From Sulfurifustis variabilis (GTDB lineage: Bacteria > Pseudomonadota > Gammaproteobacteria > Acidiferrobacterales > Sulfurifustaceae): a DNA stretch of 64,000 nt. The stretch is from the NCBI RefSeq assembly GCF_002355415.1, contig NZ_AP014936.1, positions 2,170,001 to 2,234,000 on the forward strand, in the 5' to 3' direction. Shown in pieces: positions 7,298 to 64,000 of this stretch; position 1 is the stretch's first letter; each line of letters opens with the position of its first letter. Position numbers and translations under genes: made by a program. The notes beneath the pieces are model-generated. The model did no database searches. It saw only the letters and a list, made by a program, of their open reading frames with translations, and was not told the DNA's origin.

Positions 7298-8427
7298 AGC
7301 GAAAGGTCCAGATCGAAGAACTCGCCGACCTCCGCGCCGGCCGCGCGCACGGCGCTCGCCGCTCCCGCATTGAACGCGTCGAGCTCGCCGTCCAGGAGCA
7401 CGCGCATGTTCTCGGCGCGGTACCGGAGCGTGCGGACGACCGCCCACGGGATGAGCAGGCCGAGCGTGCCCAGAATGCCGAGCGCGTTCGTGACGTAGAG
7501 TTTCGCGAGCCCGCGGGCCCTGAGCGTGGACTGGAACCGCAGCGGTCCCAGCCGCGTGTGGTTCCAGACCAGGTTCGCGAGATGCGCCTGCACGAACGCG
7601 AACGCGAGCACGTAACCGGCATAGGCGGGAAGCATCGCGAGCAGGAAGGCGTACGGGCGCGTGCCGGCGACCTGGGCGGACGCGGCGACGAGCAGGCCCG
7701 TCGCGAACGCGGCGCCCGCGATGATGAGCCCGGCCTTGAAGTACACCGCGAAGAACTGCCCGCCGGTCGCCGACAGTTCGCCGTGCTCGCCGCCGAAGCC
7801 GGTGTGGCTCACCAGAAAGTGCTTCAGACGTTTGATCCACCAGGGGAACGCGAGACTGAAGACGCCGAACGCCGCCACGCCGAACCAGGGGTTACCCCAC
7901 CAGTTGAACATGCTGCCGACGACGAGAACCGCAACGAGGCCCCAGGCGTAGATCGTCTTCGCCGCGTCGAGGTAGCGCGCGCCGAACTGAAACGTCATGT
8001 TGCGGAACGCCGAGTACCGGGCGTTGAACGCGGCGGAGCGGACGACCACCCACGGCGCGAGTGCCGCGCCGGCCGCGAGCACGTAGGGCATCACCGACGT
8101 GAAGTAGTGACTGGAGAGGTAATAAACGACGAACACGACGGCGGCGATGATGCGGCCCTTCAGGATCGGCAGCGGTTGCGCGAGATACTGGAACGGCGTG
8201 CCGACGAGCCTCGTGTGCGCGTAGAAGTAGCGCTTCTTGCGGACCTTCGCCCAGGCGGAAAAGACGCCGAGCGTGAGCAACGTCAGGCACAGGTTCACCG
8301 CCCAGACGCGGAAGTACTCGCGCGCCGAGCCGCTGAACTCGAGCGCGAGCACGCGCTCCGACGGCGCGCCGGCCGCGGCCGGCGCCGGCGGTACCGGCTC
8401 GACTGTCTGTTGGGATGCCCCTTGCAC
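7294..8427 (-). CDS. DUF898 (YjgN-family) polytopic membrane protein
   Basis: Integral membrane protein of the YjgN/DUF898 family, function unknown. A short Pro/Ala-rich N-terminus (about residues 1-25) precedes several helices, among them 'NLCLTLLTLGVFSAWAKVRKKRYFY', a typical family opening, and repeated 'ARYSAFRNMTFQFGARYLDAAKTIYAWG'-type segments. The GTG at 8427 is the chosen start. It is followed by, and overlaps by 4 bp with, the M48 protease gene; translational coupling is likely. Confidence 0.88.
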   Translation of the reverse strand: MQGASQQTVEPVPPAPAAAGAPSERVLALEFSGSAREYFRVWAVNLCLTLLTLGVFSAWAKVRKKRYFYAHTRLVGTPFQYLAQPLPILKGRIIAAVVFVVYYLSSHYFTSVMPYVLAAGAALAPWVVVRSAAFNARYSAFRNMTFQFGARYLDAAKTIYAWGLVAVLVVGSMFNWWGNPWFGVAAFGVFSLAFPWWIKRLKHFLVSHTGFGGEHGELSATGGQFFAVYFKAGLIIAGAAFATGLLVAASAQVAGTRPYAFLLAMLPAYAGYVLAFAFVQAHLANLVWNHTRLGPLRFQSTLRARGLAKLYVTNALGILGTLGLLIPWAVVRTLRYRAENMRVLLDGELDAFNAGAASAVRAAGAEVGEFFDLDLSL

Positions 8428-8482
8428 CCGCCCTCCCTGTCGCGTTCAAGGTGACGCGGGCGCGGCCGCCCGAGGACGACGC

Positions 8483-9166
8483 TCACTCGGTCCGGTCGCG
8501 AGGCCTCTGTTTGGCCGCCACCTCATCCCGAATGTAGACGGGAACCGCCTCATCTGCACGGACCGCGCGGCCGGCCGCCAGCGCGGGCACCGCGAGGCGC
8601 GCGAGATCCGCGGCGTGCGGAAAGGCGCCCGGCGTCCAGCCGGCGAGCCGGCCAGCGAGACGCGCGGTCAGCGTGTCGTGGTACTGATCCCACCCGGTAC
8701 CCGCCCCCTGCCACCCCTCGCCCTCCGGGAGCGGCACGTGCGCCGGCGCGATGACGCGCTCTTCCCCGCGGAGCGCCATCAGGCCCTGCGGCGAACGCTC
8801 GTACGCCCCCCAGTAAACCTGCTGCATCCGGGCGTCGAACGCCGCCAGAACGCGGTCCGCCTTCTGTCCCTGGGCCAGCGCGGCGAGCGAAGAGATCGGG
8901 ACGACCGGCCGGTCGATGCCGAAGGCGAGACCCTGCACCACGCCGGCACCGATACGCAATCCCGTGAACGAGCCGGGCCCGCGCCCGAAGGCGAACGCGT
9001 CGAGCTGAGCGAGCCCGACCCCGGCCTCCGCCAGGAGTTCGGACACCATGATCAGGATGCGCTCGGCATGACGCGTGCCGAGCTCGAAGCGCTCGAGGGT
9101 GCGGTCTTCGATCGACACCGCGACCGTACACGCCTCGGTGGAGGTATCGAGGGCGAGCAGTTTCAC
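8483..9166 (-). CDS. tsaB: tRNA threonylcarbamoyladenosine biosynthesis protein TsaB
   Basis: Partner of TsaD (with TsaE and TsaC) in making the t6A37 modification of ANN-decoding tRNAs; an ASKHA-fold protein without catalysis of its own. N-terminal 'LLALDTSTEACTVAV' and 'FGRGPGSFTGLRIG' (about residue 70) are family hallmarks. 227 aa is normal. The GTG at 9166 overlaps the stop of the DUF1499 gene (GTGA), giving a start exactly before 'KLLALDTSTE'. The open frame continues upstream to 9532, but that part belongs to the DUF1499 gene in another frame. Confidence 0.95.
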   Translation of the reverse strand: MKLLALDTSTEACTVAVSIEDRTLERFELGTRHAERILIMVSELLAEAGVGLAQLDAFAFGRGPGSFTGLRIGAGVVQGLAFGIDRPVVPISSLAALAQGQKADRVLAAFDARMQQVYWGAYERSPQGLMALRGEERVIAPAHVPLPEGEGWQGAGTGWDQYHDTLTARLAGRLAGWTPGAFPHAADLARLAVPALAAGRAVRADEAVPVYIRDEVAAKQRPRDRTE

Positions 9167-12920: not shown

Positions 12921-13397
12921 TCACCCGCGAAGCTTCTTCAGCAGGTTCACCATCTCGATCGCGGCCATCGCCGCGTCCGCGCCCTTGTTCCCGGCCTTGG
13001 TTCCGGCGCGCTCGATCGCCTGTTCGATCGTGTCGGTCGTGAGCACGCCGAACGACACCGGGATGTCGTGCTGCAGGCTCGCCTGCGCCACGCCCTTCGC
13101 GCACTCCCCCGCCACGTAGTCGAAGTGCGGGGTGGCACCGCGGATCACCGCGCCGAGGGCGATCAGCGCATCGAACCGGCCGCTCCCGGCGAGGGTCTTC
13201 AGCACGAGCGGCATCTCGAAGGCGCCCGGCACCCGCACCACCTCGATGTTGTTCGGATCGGTTCCGTGGCGCGCGAGCGCGTCGAGCGCGCCCGCGAGCA
13301 GCTGCTCCCCGATGAAGCCGTTGAAGCGCGCCAGCACGATCCCGAAGCGTGCGGAACGGGCGAGCAGGTCTCCCTCGATCTGTCTGGTGTTGTTCAT
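12921..13397 (-). CDS. ribH: 6,7-dimethyl-8-ribityllumazine synthase
   Basis: Condenses 5-amino-6-ribitylaminouracil with dihydroxybutanone phosphate in riboflavin synthesis. 158 aa. Family motifs: '[20 protein letters not shown]', '[13 protein letters not shown]', '[19 protein letters not shown]' and '[20 protein letters not shown]'. It lies between ribBA and nusB in one transcription unit. Confidence 0.97.
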
Positions 13398-13416
13398 GAA
13401 TTGCCCTTCTGCTGCG

Positions 13417-14583
13417 TCACTTCGCGCGGCGGCTTTCGCGGCTGGAGAAATCCTCGACGACGGCGCTGCCCGGCTCCTCGACGTACTCGATGATCTCCAG
13501 CCCGAAACCGGAGAGCGCCGGGGCCTTCATGGCGTGCCCGATCACGCGCATCTTGCCCACGCCGAGCTCGGCCAGAATCTGGCTGCCCAGCCCGTACGTG
13601 CGCATCTCCTCGCGACCGGCGGCCACCGGCGATTCTAAGGCGTCGCCGCGCCGCTGCAAACGCCGGATTCGCCCGATGAGCTCGCTCGCCGGCTCCGGCT
13701 GCTGCAGGATGACTACGATTCCGGCGCCTTCGCGCGCGACGCGCGCGAGCGCCGTCCGCAGCGACCACGTGGCGCCGGTGCGGTGCACGGCGGTGACGAG
13801 ATCGAGCAGGCTCTCCTGCATGTGCACGCGCACGAGCACCGGGCGATCGCGTGCGATCTCGCCGCGCACGAGCGCGAGATGCACCTGATCGCCGATGTCG
13901 TCGTGGTAAGCGATCGCGCGGAACTCGCCGAACTCGGTCGGCAGCACGGCCTCTGCCATCCGCTGCACGGTCGATTCGTTCTCCATGCGATAGCGGATGA
14001 GGTCGGCGATCGTGCCGATCTTGAGCCCGTGCTCCCGCGCGAACGTCTCGAGCTGCGGGAGCCGCGCCATCGTGCCGTCTTCGTTCATGATCTCGCAGAT
14101 CACGCTCGCCGGAACGAGCCCCGCGAGCCGGGGGAGATCGACGCCTGCCTCCGTGTGGCCGGCCCGGGCGAGGACCCCGCCCCGCTGCGCCATGAGCGGA
14201 AAAACGTGCCCGGGCGTCACGATGTCGCCCGGCTTGGCGTCGGGGCGGATGGCGGCCCGGATGGTCGTCGCCCGGTCGGCGGCCGAGATCCCGGTCGTTA
14301 CCCCCCGCGCGGCTTCGATCGAGACCGTGAAGTTCGTCGAGCGCCGGGCGTGCGTATCGCTCACCATGAGCGGGAGCTGAAGCTGCCGGCAGTGTTCCTG
14401 GGTGAGCGTGAGGCAGACCAGGCCCCGGCCGTGCTTCGCCATGAAGTTCACGTCCTCGGGGCGCACGTGCTCGGCCGCCATGAGGAGATCGCCTTCGTTC
14501 TCGCGGTCCTCGTCGTCCATGAGAACGACCATGCGGCCCTGACGGAGCTCATCGATGATCTCGCTGATCGGACTGATCGCCAT
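13417..14583 (-). CDS. ribB: 3,4-dihydroxy-2-butanone-4-phosphate synthase with degenerate GTP cyclohydrolase II domain
   Basis: N-terminal RibB domain (about residues 1-205), with the active-site acidic loop '[19 protein letters not shown]', makes the four-carbon precursor of riboflavin from ribulose 5-phosphate. The C-terminal part (about 210-370) is homologous to RibA, but the zinc-binding Cys cluster of true cyclohydrolases is absent. Where RibA has a 'CLTGDxFxSxxCxC'-type motif this protein reads '[18 protein letters not shown]'. It is therefore likely a RibB with a non-catalytic RibA-like domain, as in many gammaproteobacteria, and a separate RibA should exist elsewhere. 388 aa. Confidence 0.93.
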
Positions 14584-59734: not shown

Positions 59735-60631
59735 ATGGACATGTCCAAGGCATGCGTGCTGCCCGACGGCGCGGTGCTCCACTACCGTGTCTGGCGGGCC
59801 GCACGGTCGCGGGGGCGGGTCGTGCTGCTCCACGGGCTCGCGAGCAACCTCACGCGCTGGTCGGAGTTCGTCGAGCACACGTGTCTGAAGGACCGGTGGG
59901 ATCTGCTTCGTCCCGACCTGCGCGGCCACGGCGGCTCGTTCACGCGGGGCCGCCTGAGCATGGAAATCTGGAGCGACGACCTGCGCGCGCTGCTCGACGC
60001 CGAAGGATGCGAGCGCGCGGTGTTCGTCGGACACAGTCTCGGCGCGCACGTGGCGCTGCACTTCGCCGCGCGGCATCGGGAAAGCGTGCTCGGTCTCGCA
60101 TTGATCGACCCGGCGTTTCCGGAGGCGTTGCGCGGCAGAATGCGCTGGCTGCGTCCGTTCGCACCGGCACTGCGCGCCGCCGGCGCGCTCCTCGGGTTTC
60201 TCAACCGCCTCGGACTGCGGCGCAAGGTCCTCCCGCAGCGCGACCTGCGCGCACTGGACGAGCGCGTGCGCGCGGATCTGCTCGCGCACGGGCGCACGGA
60301 GGATTTCATCCGCCGCTACTCCTCCGTCCGCGCCGATCTCAAGTACTTTCCGCCCGCGCACTACCTGACCGAGCTCGCGGAGATGCTGAGACCCCTGCCG
60401 TCCCTTGCCGGTCTCGATCTGCCCGCGCTCGTCCTGTTGTCGAAGGGGCTCACCTACACCGACCCGGAGCGGACGAGGCGTCTCCTGGCCGGCGCACCGC
60501 TCGTGGAGAGTGTCACGGTGGACGCGTTCCACTGGCCGCTGACCGAGAGCCCGGCGGCCGTGCGCGGGGAGATCGAGGCGTGGACGGAGCGCCGCTTTTC
60601 CGACCGGGCTCAGTCCACGACGCCCGCATAG
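59735..60631 (+). CDS. Alpha/beta-fold hydrolase
   Basis: 298 aa. 'VVLLHGLASNLTRWSEF' with the oxyanion His-Gly, 'RPDLRGHGGS', nucleophile Ser in 'VFVGHSLGAHVALHFA' (about residue 98) and a C-terminal 'VTVDAFHWPLTES' with the catalytic His. Substrate unknown. Ends 22 bp inside the 3' end of the convergent reductase gene. Confidence 0.88.
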   Translation: MDMSKACVLPDGAVLHYRVWRAARSRGRVVLLHGLASNLTRWSEFVEHTCLKDRWDLLRPDLRGHGGSFTRGRLSMEIWSDDLRALLDAEGCERAVFVGHSLGAHVALHFAARHRESVLGLALIDPAFPEALRGRMRWLRPFAPALRAAGALLGFLNRLGLRRKVLPQRDLRALDERVRADLLAHGRTEDFIRRYSSVRADLKYFPPAHYLTELAEMLRPLPSLAGLDLPALVLLSKGLTYTDPERTRRLLAGAPLVESVTVDAFHWPLTESPAAVRGEIEAWTERRFSDRAQSTTPA

Positions 60632-62058
60632 AGTTGCGATGGCGCGAGACCGCGGGCGATAAGCTCGGGAGCGACGGCTTCCAGAAACCAGGCGGGGCCG
60701 GCGACATAGGCGTCGTAGGCGGCAAGCGCCGCCGCTTCCGTGCCGAGCGAGGCGAGCCATTTTCGCACGCCGGGGCCCGGCGCGCCGGAGGGAACGGCAG
60801 GCGTATAGGTGAAATTGTCGAAGGCGTCGGCCCAGGCGCGGCAGAGGTTGTGCAGGTAATGGCCGCCCTCCGTCCGGACACCCCACCACAGGTGCATCGC
60901 CTCCGCCGCATCGAGGGCCATCGCCTGCTCGATCAGTCCCTTGACCGGCGCAAAGCCGGTGTCCCAGGCGAGGAACAGAACCGGATTCGCCGATTCGGCG
61001 CGCAGCACGAATCGTCCCTCGGGACCGACGACGGAGACGACGTCGCCGTAGCGCAGTCCGTCGAACAGGTGCGCCGAGAACGCGTCGGTGCCCCGGCGCA
61101 CGTGGAACTGCAGACCGCCCTCTTCGCACGGGCAGCTCGCTATCGGATAGTCGCGGATCAGCCGTTCACCCAGGGCCAGCGTGACCGACTGCCCCGCCAG
61201 GAACCGCAGCCGGTTGGCCGGCGCCGTCTGGAGACCCAGCAGCATCACGTCCTCGGCGACGCGTTTCATCGACCTCACCCAGCCGACGAGATGCTGGCGC
61301 TCGATGTCGGCCGGACCGCGCGCCTCCGGCGACTCCAGCACGACGTCGGTCACGGCGGTGTGCAGGCAGAGTCGAACGCCATCCCGGCCTTCCGGGCGGG
61401 ACGCGTCCGCCCCGCCGTCCACGGCCCGCACGTCGCCGGCGACGACGCGCGCGCGGCAGCGGCCGCAGCTCCCGTCGGTGCACCCGTAGGGGAGCGCGAG
61501 CCCCGTACGGAGCGCGGCGGCGAGGATGGATTCGTTGCCCTCGACGAAGAACTCGTGACCGCTGGGCTGCACGCGCACGTGGGCCGCAATGATGCGGAGG
61601 ACCCCGTCCTCGACCGCCAGCGGCGCGACCGCCGGCGCCCCCGCGCGCAGCTCGCGGCGCAGCCATGCGTGCAGCTCCGCGGCCGCCGCGTCCGCGCCGC
61701 TCGCCCGCTCGCGCAGACGCTGTTCGAGCACGTCGACCAGGCTCCGGTAGCGGGAGAGCTGCGCGCGCAGCTCCGCCTGCTCCCGGCTCAGCGCCGTCAC
61801 GCGCGCGGCGAGCACCGAGGCGTCGGGCAGGACGCGCTCGCGCACGCGCCGGGTGTACGCCTCGTCCTTGATGCGGGCGAAGCGCTCGAAGACGCTGTTA
61901 TCTTCGAGCCTCGCCTCGGGATACAGGCGCAACAGGTCGTCGGAGCGGACGAGCCCTTCGAAGGTCGCCAGTTCACCGGTCTTGATGCGCTTTTGCAGCG
62001 CGCCGCGGGGAACGCCGACGAGCCGGGCGGCGCGGGTCAAGGTGAGAAATCGGTCCAT
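60610..62058 (-). CDS. Fusion protein: HTH-like domain, coiled coil, [2Fe-2S] ferredoxin, flavin/NAD(P)H reductase
   Basis: 482 aa. Residues about 1-50 resemble a MerR/excisionase-type helix-turn-helix ('LTRAARLVGVPRGALQKRIKTGELATFEG'). Residues about 80-120 form a coiled coil ('ARVTALSREQAELRAQLSRYRSLVDVLEQRL'). A plant-type [2Fe-2S] domain has ligands in 'YGCTDGSCGRCRARV' (Cys near 191, 196, 199) and 'RLCLHTAV' (near 232). The rest is a ferredoxin-NADP-reductase fold: FAD site 'RDYPIASCP', then 'PVLFLAWDTGFAPVKGLIEQA' and terminal 'AYVAGPAWFLEAVAPEL'. The reductase half resembles CDP-glucoseen reductase/oxygenase reductases. Whether the N-terminus binds DNA is unproven. Confidence 0.85.
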   Translation of the reverse strand: MDRFLTLTRAARLVGVPRGALQKRIKTGELATFEGLVRSDDLLRLYPEARLEDNSVFERFARIKDEAYTRRVRERVLPDASVLAARVTALSREQAELRAQLSRYRSLVDVLEQRLRERASGADAAAAELHAWLRRELRAGAPAVAPLAVEDGVLRIIAAHVRVQPSGHEFFVEGNESILAAALRTGLALPYGCTDGSCGRCRARVVAGDVRAVDGGADASRPEGRDGVRLCLHTAVTDVVLESPEARGPADIERQHLVGWVRSMKRVAEDVMLLGLQTAPANRLRFLAGQSVTLALGERLIRDYPIASCPCEEGGLQFHVRRGTDAFSAHLFDGLRYGDVVSVVGPEGRFVLRAESANPVLFLAWDTGFAPVKGLIEQAMALDAAEAMHLWWGVRTEGGHYLHNLCRAWADAFDNFTYTPAVPSGAPGPGVRKWLASLGTEAAALAAYDAYVAGPAWFLEAVAPELIARGLAPSQLYAGVVD

Positions 62059-62145: not shown

Positions 62146-64000
62146 TCAGCCCCGGCCCGGCTCCTCGCCCGATCGGGACGCGCGCGCCGCCAGCGGCCGG
62201 ACGTCGCGCAGACGGCGCAGCCGATCCGAGCGGAAGAAACCGGGATCGGGCAGGGCCTCGGCCGGCCGGGCGATGAAGTAGCCCTGCGCGAAATCCGCAC
62301 CGATGTCCGATAACAGCTGGAACGTACGCCGATCCTCGACCGACTCGGCGATGGTCTGCTTCCCGAGCGCCTGCGCGATCTGGACGATGGATCGCACCAT
62401 GACCTGATCCAGAGCGTCGGCCGATGCCTTCTCGACGAAGGCACCCGATATCTTGATGAACGAGACCGGCAGGTGCTTGAGATAATTCAGCGAGCTGAAC
62501 CCCGAACCGAAGTCGTCGAGCGCGAACCGGCAGCCGAGCCGGCCGAGGTCTTCCATCACCCGCCGCGCCTGCTCCACGTGGCGCACGGCCACCTGCTCGG
62601 TGATCTCGAACACGAGCGCGGCGCCGGGAACGCGCTGCTGCTTGAGATTGTCGGCGACGACGCGCAGCAGCGCCTCGCCGTCGTCGAACGCCTGGCCCGA
62701 GAGGTTCACGAAGAAGGTGGCCTCGCGCCCGGTCGCGCGCAGGCCCGCGTGCATGGCGCAGGCCTGCCGGATCACCCAGTGGTCGAGCTCGAGGAGCATG
62801 CCGAAGCGGTTGGCGAGCGGCAGGAACGCCGAGGGCGCCATCAGCTCCCCGTCGGCGCCCGCGAGCCGCAGCAGCAGCTCGTAGCGCTCGCCGCTCGCGT
62901 CGTTCAGGCTCACGATGGGCTGTGAGACCAGCTTGAGCGAGTTGTCGCGGATGGCGCCCGCCAGCTGATCCGACCATTCCGGCTCGTGCTGCCGCCGCTC
63001 GCCCTGCGCCTCGTCCGGCTCATCGATCCAGTAGCGGTTGCCGCCGCGCGCCTTGGCCTGCTCGCACGCCGTCTGAGCCCGGTCGAGCGCCTGCTCGATC
63101 GAGCGCGTGCCGTCGAGAACGGCGATGCCGATGCTCGCCGCGATGCCGAACGATTCCTCGCGCTCCACGAAGTGGAAGTCCTGGATGACCTGATTGATCG
63201 AGCGCGCGACCTTGATGGCGCCTTCGCGATTGACCCGGCGCACGAGCGCGACGAACTCGTCGCCGCCGACGCGCGCGAGCAGGTCGTTCTCGCGAATGTG
63301 CGCGCGCAGGATGCCGGCGATCTGCCCCAGCAACCGGTCTCCCGCGCCGTGGCCCAGCGCGTCGTTGATCCGCCTGAAACCGTCGAGATCGATGTACAGC
63401 ACCGCGTGCGCCCCACCCTCCCTGCCCAGTCGCCCGCGCTCGAGCTCGAGCTGGCGCCCGAGGTAGCGTCGATTCGCGAGCCCGGTCAGGGAATCGCACT
63501 CCGCGCGCCGGAGCGCCTGCTCGCGCTGCCGCAGCAGGCCGATCGTCGCGCTCAGCGCCTCGCGAATGGCCGCGATCTCGCGGTCGCCGCCGTCGCCCAT
63601 GTGCACCTCGGTCTCGCCGCGCGCCAGCCGCGCGAGCGGCTCCTGGAGGGCGATAAGGGGGGCAAGCGCCTTGCGGATCATGTGTCGGCCCATGAACAGC
63701 GCGAGGAGGAAAACGGCGGCCAGCGCGACGCTGCCCGCGATCAGGCTCTTGAGGAACGCCGCGCGCTCGTGCCCGGGATCGAGGCCGAAGTCGATGTAGC
63801 CGATCACCCGGACGGCCTCGGCACGCGCACCCTGCTGCAGATCCCGCAGCCCGACGGCCGGGAGCGCGCGGATGCGAACCGGCGCGATGATCCGCACGAT
63901 GCCGACATGGTTTCCGGCCCCCTGCACGAGGAAGGGTGCGTCCTGGGTCGCGACCTCGTTCGCCGCCTGCGTTTCTTCGGGCGTCAGCTCCGCGGGCGCG
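62146..64000 (-). CDS. GGDEF-EAL membrane protein, 5' end cut by the window
   Basis: The frame is open to the right edge, so the N-terminus is missing; the GTG at 63927 is probably internal. One transmembrane helix ('LIAGSVALAAVFLLALFMG') precedes a HAMP-like linker. The GGDEF domain is intact ('DSLTGLANRRYL', 'RVGGDEFVALVRR'). The EAL domain has 'YELLLRLAG' in place of EALLR, but keeps 'FEITEQV', 'LDDFGSGFSSLNYL', 'IKISGAFV' and 'IAESVED'. It could make, degrade or sense cyclic di-GMP. The visible upstream part is probably the end of a periplasmic sensor domain. Confidence 0.92.
   Translation of the reverse strand, partial: APAELTPEETQAANEVATQDAPFLVQGAGNHVGIVRIIAPVRIRALPAVGLRDLQQGARAEAVRVIGYIDFGLDPGHERAAFLKSLIAGSVALAAVFLLALFMGRHMIRKALAPLIALQEPLARLARGETEVHMGDGGDREIAAIREALSATIGLLRQREQALRRAECDSLTGLANRRYLGRQLELERGRLGREGGAHAVLYIDLDGFRRINDALGHGAGDRLLGQIAGILRAHIRENDLLARVGGDEFVALVRRVNREGAIKVARSINQVIQDFHFVEREESFGIAASIGIAVLDGTRSIEQALDRAQTACEQAKARGGNRYWIDEPDEAQGERRQHEPEWSDQLAGAIRDNSLKLVSQPIVSLNDASGERYELLLRLAGADGELMAPSAFLPLANRFGMLLELDHWVIRQACAMHAGLRATGREATFFVNLSGQAFDDGEALLRVVADNLKQQRVPGAALVFEITEQVAVRHVEQARRVMEDLGRLGCRFALDDFGSGFSSLNYLKHLPVSFIKISGAFVEKASADALDQVMVRSIVQIAQALGKQTIAESVEDRRTFQLLSDIGADFAQGYFIARPAEALPDPGFFRSDRLRRLRDVRPLAARASRSGEEPGRG

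Follow-up and report, generated by a model that had tools for sequence, protein, structure and literature searches.

The window analyzed here, a 64,000-nucleotide stretch of the genome of the sulfur-oxidizing gammaproteobacterium Sulfurifustis variabilis, encodes a 482-residue fusion protein with an ATG start, in which a predicted helix-turn-helix (HTH) domain and a coiled coil precede a ferredoxin-reductase-like tail (Table 1). An earlier interpretation made from the letters of this DNA (the sequence-only reading) had placed the open reading frame (ORF) at exactly the same coordinates and described an HTH-coiled-coil module fused to an electron-transfer chain. That architecture is a conserved layout and no chance event, as 72 distinct full-length homologues retain it. 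The sequence-only reading missed three things: the link to the reverse Dsr pathway, a Cys-Pro-Cys (CPC) motif that is invariant in the tail, and the fact that the HTH module also occurs on its own. With these, the fused protein is tentatively interpreted as a Dsr-linked DNA-binding regulator.

Table 1. Positions of the fused gene, its parts and related features (window coordinates unless the genome is named).
Feature	Position	Strand	Basis or remark
Window	genome 2170001-2234000		single-contig genome, 3,958,814 bases
Whole fused gene, HTH / coiled coil / [2Fe-2S] / FNR-like	60610..62058	-	ORF, Pfam, 72 distinct full-length homologues
Stop codon of fused gene	60610-60612	-	
Residues 1-48, predicted winged HTH of MerR/excisionase (HTH_17) type; recognition helix 18-27	61915..62058	-	conservation, HTH_17 matches, model, structural matches
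Residues 54-140, long helices, predicted coiled coil, probable dimerization rod	61639..61899	-	secondary structure of models
Residues 162-250, plant-type [2Fe-2S] ferredoxin domain; ligands C193, C198, C201, C231	61309..61575	-	Pfam, conservation
Residues 262-350, FAD-binding-6-like barrel, eroded RxYS motif	61009..61275	-	Pfam, motif check, Foldseek
Residues 309-311, Cys-Pro-Cys	61126..61134	-	invariant in 72/72 fused homologues
Residues 367-462, NAD-binding-1-like domain, altered glycine loop AWDTGFAP	60673..60960	-	Pfam, motif check
Inverted repeat, 8 bp with 7-bp loop, between GGDEF-EAL gene and fused-gene start codon	62109..62131	-	candidate operator or terminator
GGDEF-EAL gene, upstream neighbor of fused gene	62146-63927	-	
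Alpha/beta hydrolase gene, convergent	59735-60631	+	overlaps 3' end of fused gene by 22 bp
Canonical paralogue, RRSFSLAN and AGGTGFAP, without CPC	genome 493320-494303		same genome
CPC paralogue without HTH	genome 269728-270687 (L106 8129-9094)		same genome
DsrS homologue	genome 2965834-2966937		consistent with dsrS SVA_2921 in the accessible text of PMC5024460

Conservation and domains of the fused protein

Full-length homologues with ~39-53% identity occur in relatives and under the record labels Thiobacillus, Hydrogenophilus, Tepidiphilus, Rhodocyclaceae, Gallionellaceae, Thiohalophilus, Thiotrichales and Acidiferrobacterales. Genome G004 also has the fused gene. The set comprises 74 loci whose hits start at or before residue 5 and end at or after residue 450, and these give the 72 distinct sequences. 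In a phylum-wide sample of 397 genomes, 11 yielded a match: five from the same class (the window included) and G639 from outside it have fusion-length frames, and the remaining five matches are weak or short. Mean column entropy over the 72 sequences shows the ferredoxin part to be the most conserved (1.05 bits, residues 159-250) and the HTH part to be almost as conserved (1.19 bits, residues 1-50). Values are higher in the connecting region (1.52 bits for residues 51-70, 1.78 for 71-125 and 2.01 for 126-158) and in the flavin adenine dinucleotide (FAD) and nicotinamide adenine dinucleotide (NAD) parts (1.50 bits for 251-350 and 1.74 for 351-482). Invariant positions are R9, L13, R18, Q22, G35, L42, P47, A67, P78, L83 and R86, of which R18 and Q22 (72/72) lie on the predicted recognition helix.

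Structurally, the AlphaFold2 model of the N-terminus contains a beta strand at residues 4-6, helices at 7-14 and 18-27, a strand at 36-38 and a helix at 39-45. Helices of coiled-coil type follow at 55-74, 80-120 and 124-140, with residues 51-80 at low confidence in this monomer model. The Pfam model HTH_17 is matched by 31 of the 51 members of the N-terminal alignment at E values up to 1 (best 3e-6); for the window protein alone, the match at residues 4-35 (E 0.13) is under the cut-off. Three alignments were used. Of 52 eligible loci, A1 holds 50 and A2 holds 43, each together with the window; A3 consists of 15 chosen rows. Residues 2-48 match BldC (6ama, Z 6.2), Pukovnik Xis (4j2n, Z 6.1), CvkR (Z 4.9), SoxR (PDB 2zhh/2zhg, Z 4.8, rmsd (root-mean-square deviation) 1.8 over 46 residues) and CbpM (Z 4.6), all Z values of middling size. 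VIA-align Z for the N-terminal model does not exceed 6.2, and therefore the 48-residue winged HTH match alone was used. Run against PDB sequences, the N-terminal profile had no significant hit (lowest E 0.13). The predicted topology, the HTH_17 matches and the likeness to BldC, Xis and SoxR place the model in the MerR-like winged HTH superfamily. The sequence-only reading had proposed, as a check, structure prediction of the N-terminus against MerR, Xis and AlpA folds; the prediction returns a winged HTH with a recognition helix, in support of its putative DNA-binding N-terminus followed by a coiled coil. On this model, DNA binding by the HTH is plausible, and the coiled coil may serve dimerization.

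SoxR combines a MerR-type HTH, a coiled coil and a [2Fe-2S] cluster in one protein. Its cluster lies in a small loop of its own, whereas that of the fused protein lies in a plant-type ferredoxin domain joined to an FNR-like fold. Unlike BldC and the excisionases (HTH_17, Xis, AlpA), which provide the best structural matches, the fused protein carries a long coiled coil and a reductase in addition, and its wing is short and acidic instead of basic.

The tail of the window protein matches Fer2 (162-231), FAD_binding_6 (262-350) and NAD_binding_1 (367-462) above the Pfam cut-offs. It shares this domain order and its fold with the BenC/GcoB-type [2Fe-2S]-FAD-NAD reductases of class IB, and the solved structures nearest to it in sequence belong to reductases of P450s and dioxygenases (5ogx, E 1e-22; BenC 1krh, 8e-16). 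Foldseek aligns it at 1e-24 to 5e-23 with 7c3a (carbazole-dioxygenase reductase), 5ogx (GcoB) and 1krh (BenC), with a large rmsd that perhaps reflects different domain placement. The cluster ligands follow the pattern C-x4-C-x2-C-xn-C: C193, C198 and C201 are present in 72/72 sequences and C231 in 71/72, the other row having an X. Class IB (BenC-type) enzymes are marked by RxY(S/T) for FAD and a GGxGxxP loop for NAD, a pattern from which the fused family departs. The FAD-pyrophosphate arginine R302 survives in 3/72 sequences, the window protein among them, and S305 in 1/72, with Y304 retained in 59/72. The NAD loop is A-x-x-x-GFAP in most of the 72 rows (AWDTGFAP in the window protein versus GGTGFAP in the canonical paralogue), and residue 453, where classical enzymes have the Cys of their CGP motif, is Ala in 63/72 and Cys in 2/72. 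Unlike BenC and GcoB, the family also carries the CPC motif and an HTH-coiled coil in front. The sequence-only reading had described a complete [2Fe-2S]-flavin-NAD(P)H reductase; the domain order and cluster cysteines bear this out, but with the FAD arginine so rare and the NAD loop altered, ‘complete’ is too strong. Judging from these motifs, the tail is probably a re-purposed FNR-fold protein with a CPC motif.

The HTH module as a separate protein

Among 369 genomes of the class, 67 carry the HTH module: 34 as part of the fusion, 7 as an adjacent pair only, 25 as a module alone (~145 residues) and one as a weak partial match (G338). Genomes were sorted by reading frame and hit positions; G308 has a fused copy and a pair, the pair in G254 is deduced from hit positions, and the divergent outlier G392 is counted as alone. 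In seven inspected loci, the next gene downstream of the standalone module gene encodes a CPC-type reductase. Four standalone modules were scanned with NCBIfam: ‘plasmid replication DNA-binding protein’ is matched by three of them (1e-5 to 4e-4) and ‘excise’ by two (7e-4 and 0.003), all below the cut-off.

On a module tree of 42 fused, 7 split and 25 alone rows, weakly resolved with 28 of 70 inner branches open, the states cluster: fused versus other changes 2 times (shuffled mean 24.4), split 3 times (6.8) and alone 4 times (21.1). Such clustering would fit a small number of fusions or fissions, gain and loss being indistinguishable in direction. At two loci (L140 and L147, genomes G375 and G136), a stop codon separates the module from the reductase in one reading frame, and there the split and fused states differ by little. 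On another contig (L077), a CPC reductase (7971-9020) and a standalone HTH module (13165-13608) lie ~4 kb apart.

The free module also co-occurs with the reductase. A CPC-type reductase is found in 16/25 genomes with a free module and in 18/302 without a module (Fisher p 5e-12), when genomes with a fused gene or an adjacent pair are omitted and the reductase is called at >= 310 bits with profile A3, plus G342. This threshold was set by eye; G342, in which the motif was seen, and G121, which is fused, score lower and were included manually. The exact sequence ASCPC is present in 14 of the 16 reductases from standalone-module genomes (exceptions G190 and G278). The 18 reductase-only genomes show ASCPC in 13 cases, another xxCPC in four (G088, G144, G260, G314) and none in G417.

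Association with the reverse Dsr pathway

One of the main ways in which chemolithoautotrophs oxidize sulfur is reverse Dsr. The sequence-only reading had suggested a search for genomic neighbors, and in relatives the telling neighborhood is dsr. Detected with TIGR02064 at E values up to 1e-60, dsrA is present in 121/369 genomes (116 over the cut-off, the others partial); the control genomes gave no match to this model. It accompanies the module in 60/67 genomes versus 61/302 without the module (p 5e-27), and the CPC reductase in 69/75 versus 52/294 others (p 4e-34); 45 dsrA genomes have neither. By hand count, dsrA occurs in at least one module genome of 33 of the 36 module-bearing families, and another 24 families have dsrA but no module. 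Autotrophy, scored as RuBisCO, was tried as the explaining trait and rejected: the raw association (58/67 versus 134/302) vanishes within dsrA-positive genomes (53/60 versus 54/61) and is weak within dsrA-negative ones (5/7 versus 80/241, p 0.048), whereas the dsrA association is present within both RuBisCO classes.

Separate CPC reductases also occupy a defined place in the pathway's operons. In G096, G140, G069 and G232, the final genes of the dsr cluster, which share a strand, are dsrN, dsrR, a DsrS-like gene and, in last place, the CPC reductase. These four were selected for having dsrA and a CPC reductase on one contig less than 17 kb apart and are not a random sample. In one of them (L230), dsrA, dsrB and a CobB-type dsrN score above the NCBIfam cut-offs, and an IscA-like dsrR and DsrP below; the DsrS label, confirmed by no model, rests on position and published order, and the other dsr labels on order and length. 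The published gene order is dsrABEFHCMKLJOPNRS (accessible text of PMC10892978), and that text and the accessible part of PMC5024460 name neither the CPC reductase nor the HTH module. In the open-access literature as far as accessible, with most subscription journals outside its scope, neither a description of the fusion or of a ferredoxin-reductase gene after dsrS nor a dedicated transcription factor of reverse dsr genes was found. DsrR, an IscA-like protein, takes part in the regulation of sulfur oxidation, according to the accessible part of PMC11406059. The CPC reductase thus adds an apparently unnamed gene to some dsr operons. The loci with a DsrS-like gene and a CPC-type ferredoxin reductase at the end of the dsr operon are L227, L228, L230 and L233.

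Genes for a MoxR-type AAA protein and a VWA protein (DUF2201) lie inside the dsr operons of G096 and G232 (L227, L233). In five Rhodocyclaceae loci (L025, L026, L027, L029, L037), the gene right after the fused one is a homologue of the AAA gene, with the VWA gene beyond in four. L026 and L094 each have a DsrS-like gene at a distance of 4-6 kb from the fused gene. Among 146 anchored loci, duplicates included, members of five lineages (L021/L081, L094, L144, L216, L217/L218/L221) have a DsrC-family gene less than or equal to 600 bp away; with 5-11 DsrC matches per genome in nine counted genomes, this proximity is supporting evidence at most. Standalone modules 15-22 kb from dsrA (G158, G271, G358, G364) are not operonic with it in the loci inspected (L229, L234), and in G291 the CPC reductase and dsrA share a contig, ~9 kb apart, without forming one operon (L235).

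In S. variabilis, the fused gene lies outside the dsr cluster. The CPC paralogue starts ~2.4 kb past the end of a second dsrA (genome 266102-267289), a location consistent with the dsrAB pair outside the main dsr cluster described in the accessible text of PMC5024460, where dsrS is SVA_2921. The same paralogue is ~1.2 kb downstream of a dsrB-like gene and is followed by a GGDEF-EAL gene (L106 9118-11526). Taken together, the module and the CPC reductase are very probably associated with Dsr, oxidative and reductive types of dsrA being counted alike.

A candidate regulator and its alternatives

The upstream DNA offers candidate operators. In seven Thiobacillus-group genomes, a 26-bp dyad, CAGAATC-N12-GATTCTG, occupies positions -56 to -31 of the fused gene, and its core occurs once per genome, at this site. 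Twelve of the 13 loci of the Thiobacillus-type group were searched; of the other five genomes, four lack the core and one (G433) has a different site, and a reversed-pattern control gave 0 in all 12. The dyad sequence fits autoregulation of the fused gene, and relatedness or another regulator may also account for it. At 3 mismatches, each genome has 50-96 sites versus 6-14 for the reversed control, which is poorly matched in base steps, so the excess is left uninterpreted. All seven dyad-bearing genomes have dsrA matches, six over the cut-off. Upstream alignments of the window's own group, read in part together with shorter stretches, revealed no conserved operator, and the inverted repeat listed in Table 1 was not found in aligned relatives. 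In many Thiobacillus, Hydrogenophilus and Gallionellaceae-type loci, -10-like hexamers (TATTAT, TACCAT, TAACAT) end ~6-7 bases before the ATG, a placement that would give leaderless fused-gene transcripts divergent from recJ.

The explanation we favor, at a probability of roughly 0.47, is a Dsr-linked dimer that regulates the reverse Dsr regulon by binding DNA in response to redox or sulfur state. Computation gives the architecture, its conservation, the independence of the module, its link to the CPC reductase and the dsr link of both; from these we infer DNA binding, dimerization, a signal and targets. The fused protein would be a two-part system of reverse-Dsr sulfur-oxidizing Pseudomonadota, with a MerR/excisionase-type winged HTH and coiled coil as one part and, as the other, a [2Fe-2S]/FNR-like protein of the CPC subfamily, some separate relatives of which close dsr operons. 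Through its reduced or oxidized [2Fe-2S] cluster, and possibly also through the CPC dithiol, the ferredoxin/CPC half would register how the Dsr pathway is supplied with electrons or sulfane sulfur. The coiled coil would transmit this signal and alter DNA binding by the HTH, the fused gene's own promoter being one putative target. The sequence-only reading had imagined a redox- or NAD(P)H-responsive regulator carrying its own electron source; the redox-responsive regulator stays the likeliest explanation, but the NAD(P)H source is doubtful because the NAD(P)H-binding motifs are eroded. A narrower version seems unlikely: a dedicated reverse Dsr sensor-regulator with a SoxR-like HTH-coiled coil, an FNR-derived [2Fe-2S] input relieved of NADH oxidase duty and a gained CPC, which would sense sulfane sulfur or DsrAB/DsrC electron load and would have been born by fusion of a free DNA-binding protein with the dsr-operon-closing reductase.

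Several observations weigh against the regulator. Foldseek E-values of the N-terminal model are weak (best 0.019), and its structural matches include CbpM, solved as a complex with a J-domain. BldC contacts bases through Lys26 and Arg30 and docks a basic wing (His46, Arg47, Arg48) in the minor groove (accessible text of PMC5859096). By aligned helices, those base-contact positions fall on the variable positions 19 and 23 of the fused protein, and a basic wing of this type is lacking: the wing, ATFEGLV, is short and has no basic residue, all 72 fused homologues carry D or E at position 34, and the median net charge of the HTH in fused rows is merely +1. The module and the reductase also occur apart, with a CPC-type reductase absent from 9/25 standalone-module genomes and 18 CPC-reductase genomes lacking a detected module. 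Some 240 kb separate the window's fused gene from the main dsr cluster, the dyad is limited to one group (7 of 12 genomes searched), and the co-occurrence tests ignore phylogeny, several genomes being incomplete. A shared operator upstream of dsr was tried and rejected, as in G426, the one genome covered in full, none of the 50 sites (up to 3 mismatches) is near dsrA. Plain enzymatic work is still compatible with the data.

Such work is the substance of the main rival, a possible though less likely one, in which the protein transfers electrons in reverse Dsr. Its [2Fe-2S]/flavin half would connect NAD(P)+ or some other carrier with a partner from the pathway, be it DsrAB, DsrC, DsrL or the DsrMKJOP side, and the HTH-coiled coil would be an oligomerization and docking module that keeps it at this partner, a role that CbpM, with an HTH fold of the same kind bound to a J-domain, makes conceivable. 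The position of the CPC reductase inside the structural dsr operon of four genomes, the nearby DsrC-family genes, the four retained cluster cysteines with Y304, and the 18 genomes in which the reductase occurs without the module all suit this rival. An ordinary NADH reductase, however, would not be expected to show so rare an FAD-pyrophosphate arginine and an altered NAD glycine loop, and the free HTH module in 25 genomes, nine of them without a CPC-type reductase, and the own-promoter dyad of one group likewise count against this rival.

The eroded FAD and NAD motifs, together with the conserved HTH, could also indicate a DNA-binding regulator that is no redox sensor and uses a redox-dead reductase half as a ligand-binding or structural domain. 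This is improbable, given the strict conservation of the [2Fe-2S] ligands and of CPC and the rank of the ferredoxin part as the most conserved. Far less probable still is an ordinary oxygenase reductase with an incidental N-terminal extension: although the closest solved structures are oxygenase partners, the N-terminus is conserved throughout the 72 sequences and is also encoded on its own, and the family is tied to dsr. As the sequence-only reading had remarked, no oxygenase is adjacent: none is among the two neighbors of the window gene (GGDEF-EAL and alpha/beta hydrolase), nor among the ten named neighbor clusters of its relatives (78 loci, most clusters unnamed). The regulator remains the preferred explanation; fusion, adjacency and co-occurrence tie a conserved HTH protein to a redox protein encoded at the end of dsr operons and make it a concrete candidate open to testing.

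The named neighbor clusters include recJ (40/78), a DEAD helicase (9), an S9 peptidase (9) and a ParA-like protein (8); this count omitted the window, L044, L077, L079, L081, L086 and L106-L108 as duplicates, paralogues or partial loci. GGDEF-EAL genes adjoin several family members, upstream of the window gene, downstream of the CPC paralogue and upstream of a reductase-only gene (L222, also L223), which may merely reflect how common such genes are. A homologue of the alpha/beta hydrolase has the same position in L089 and is one gene further away in L021.

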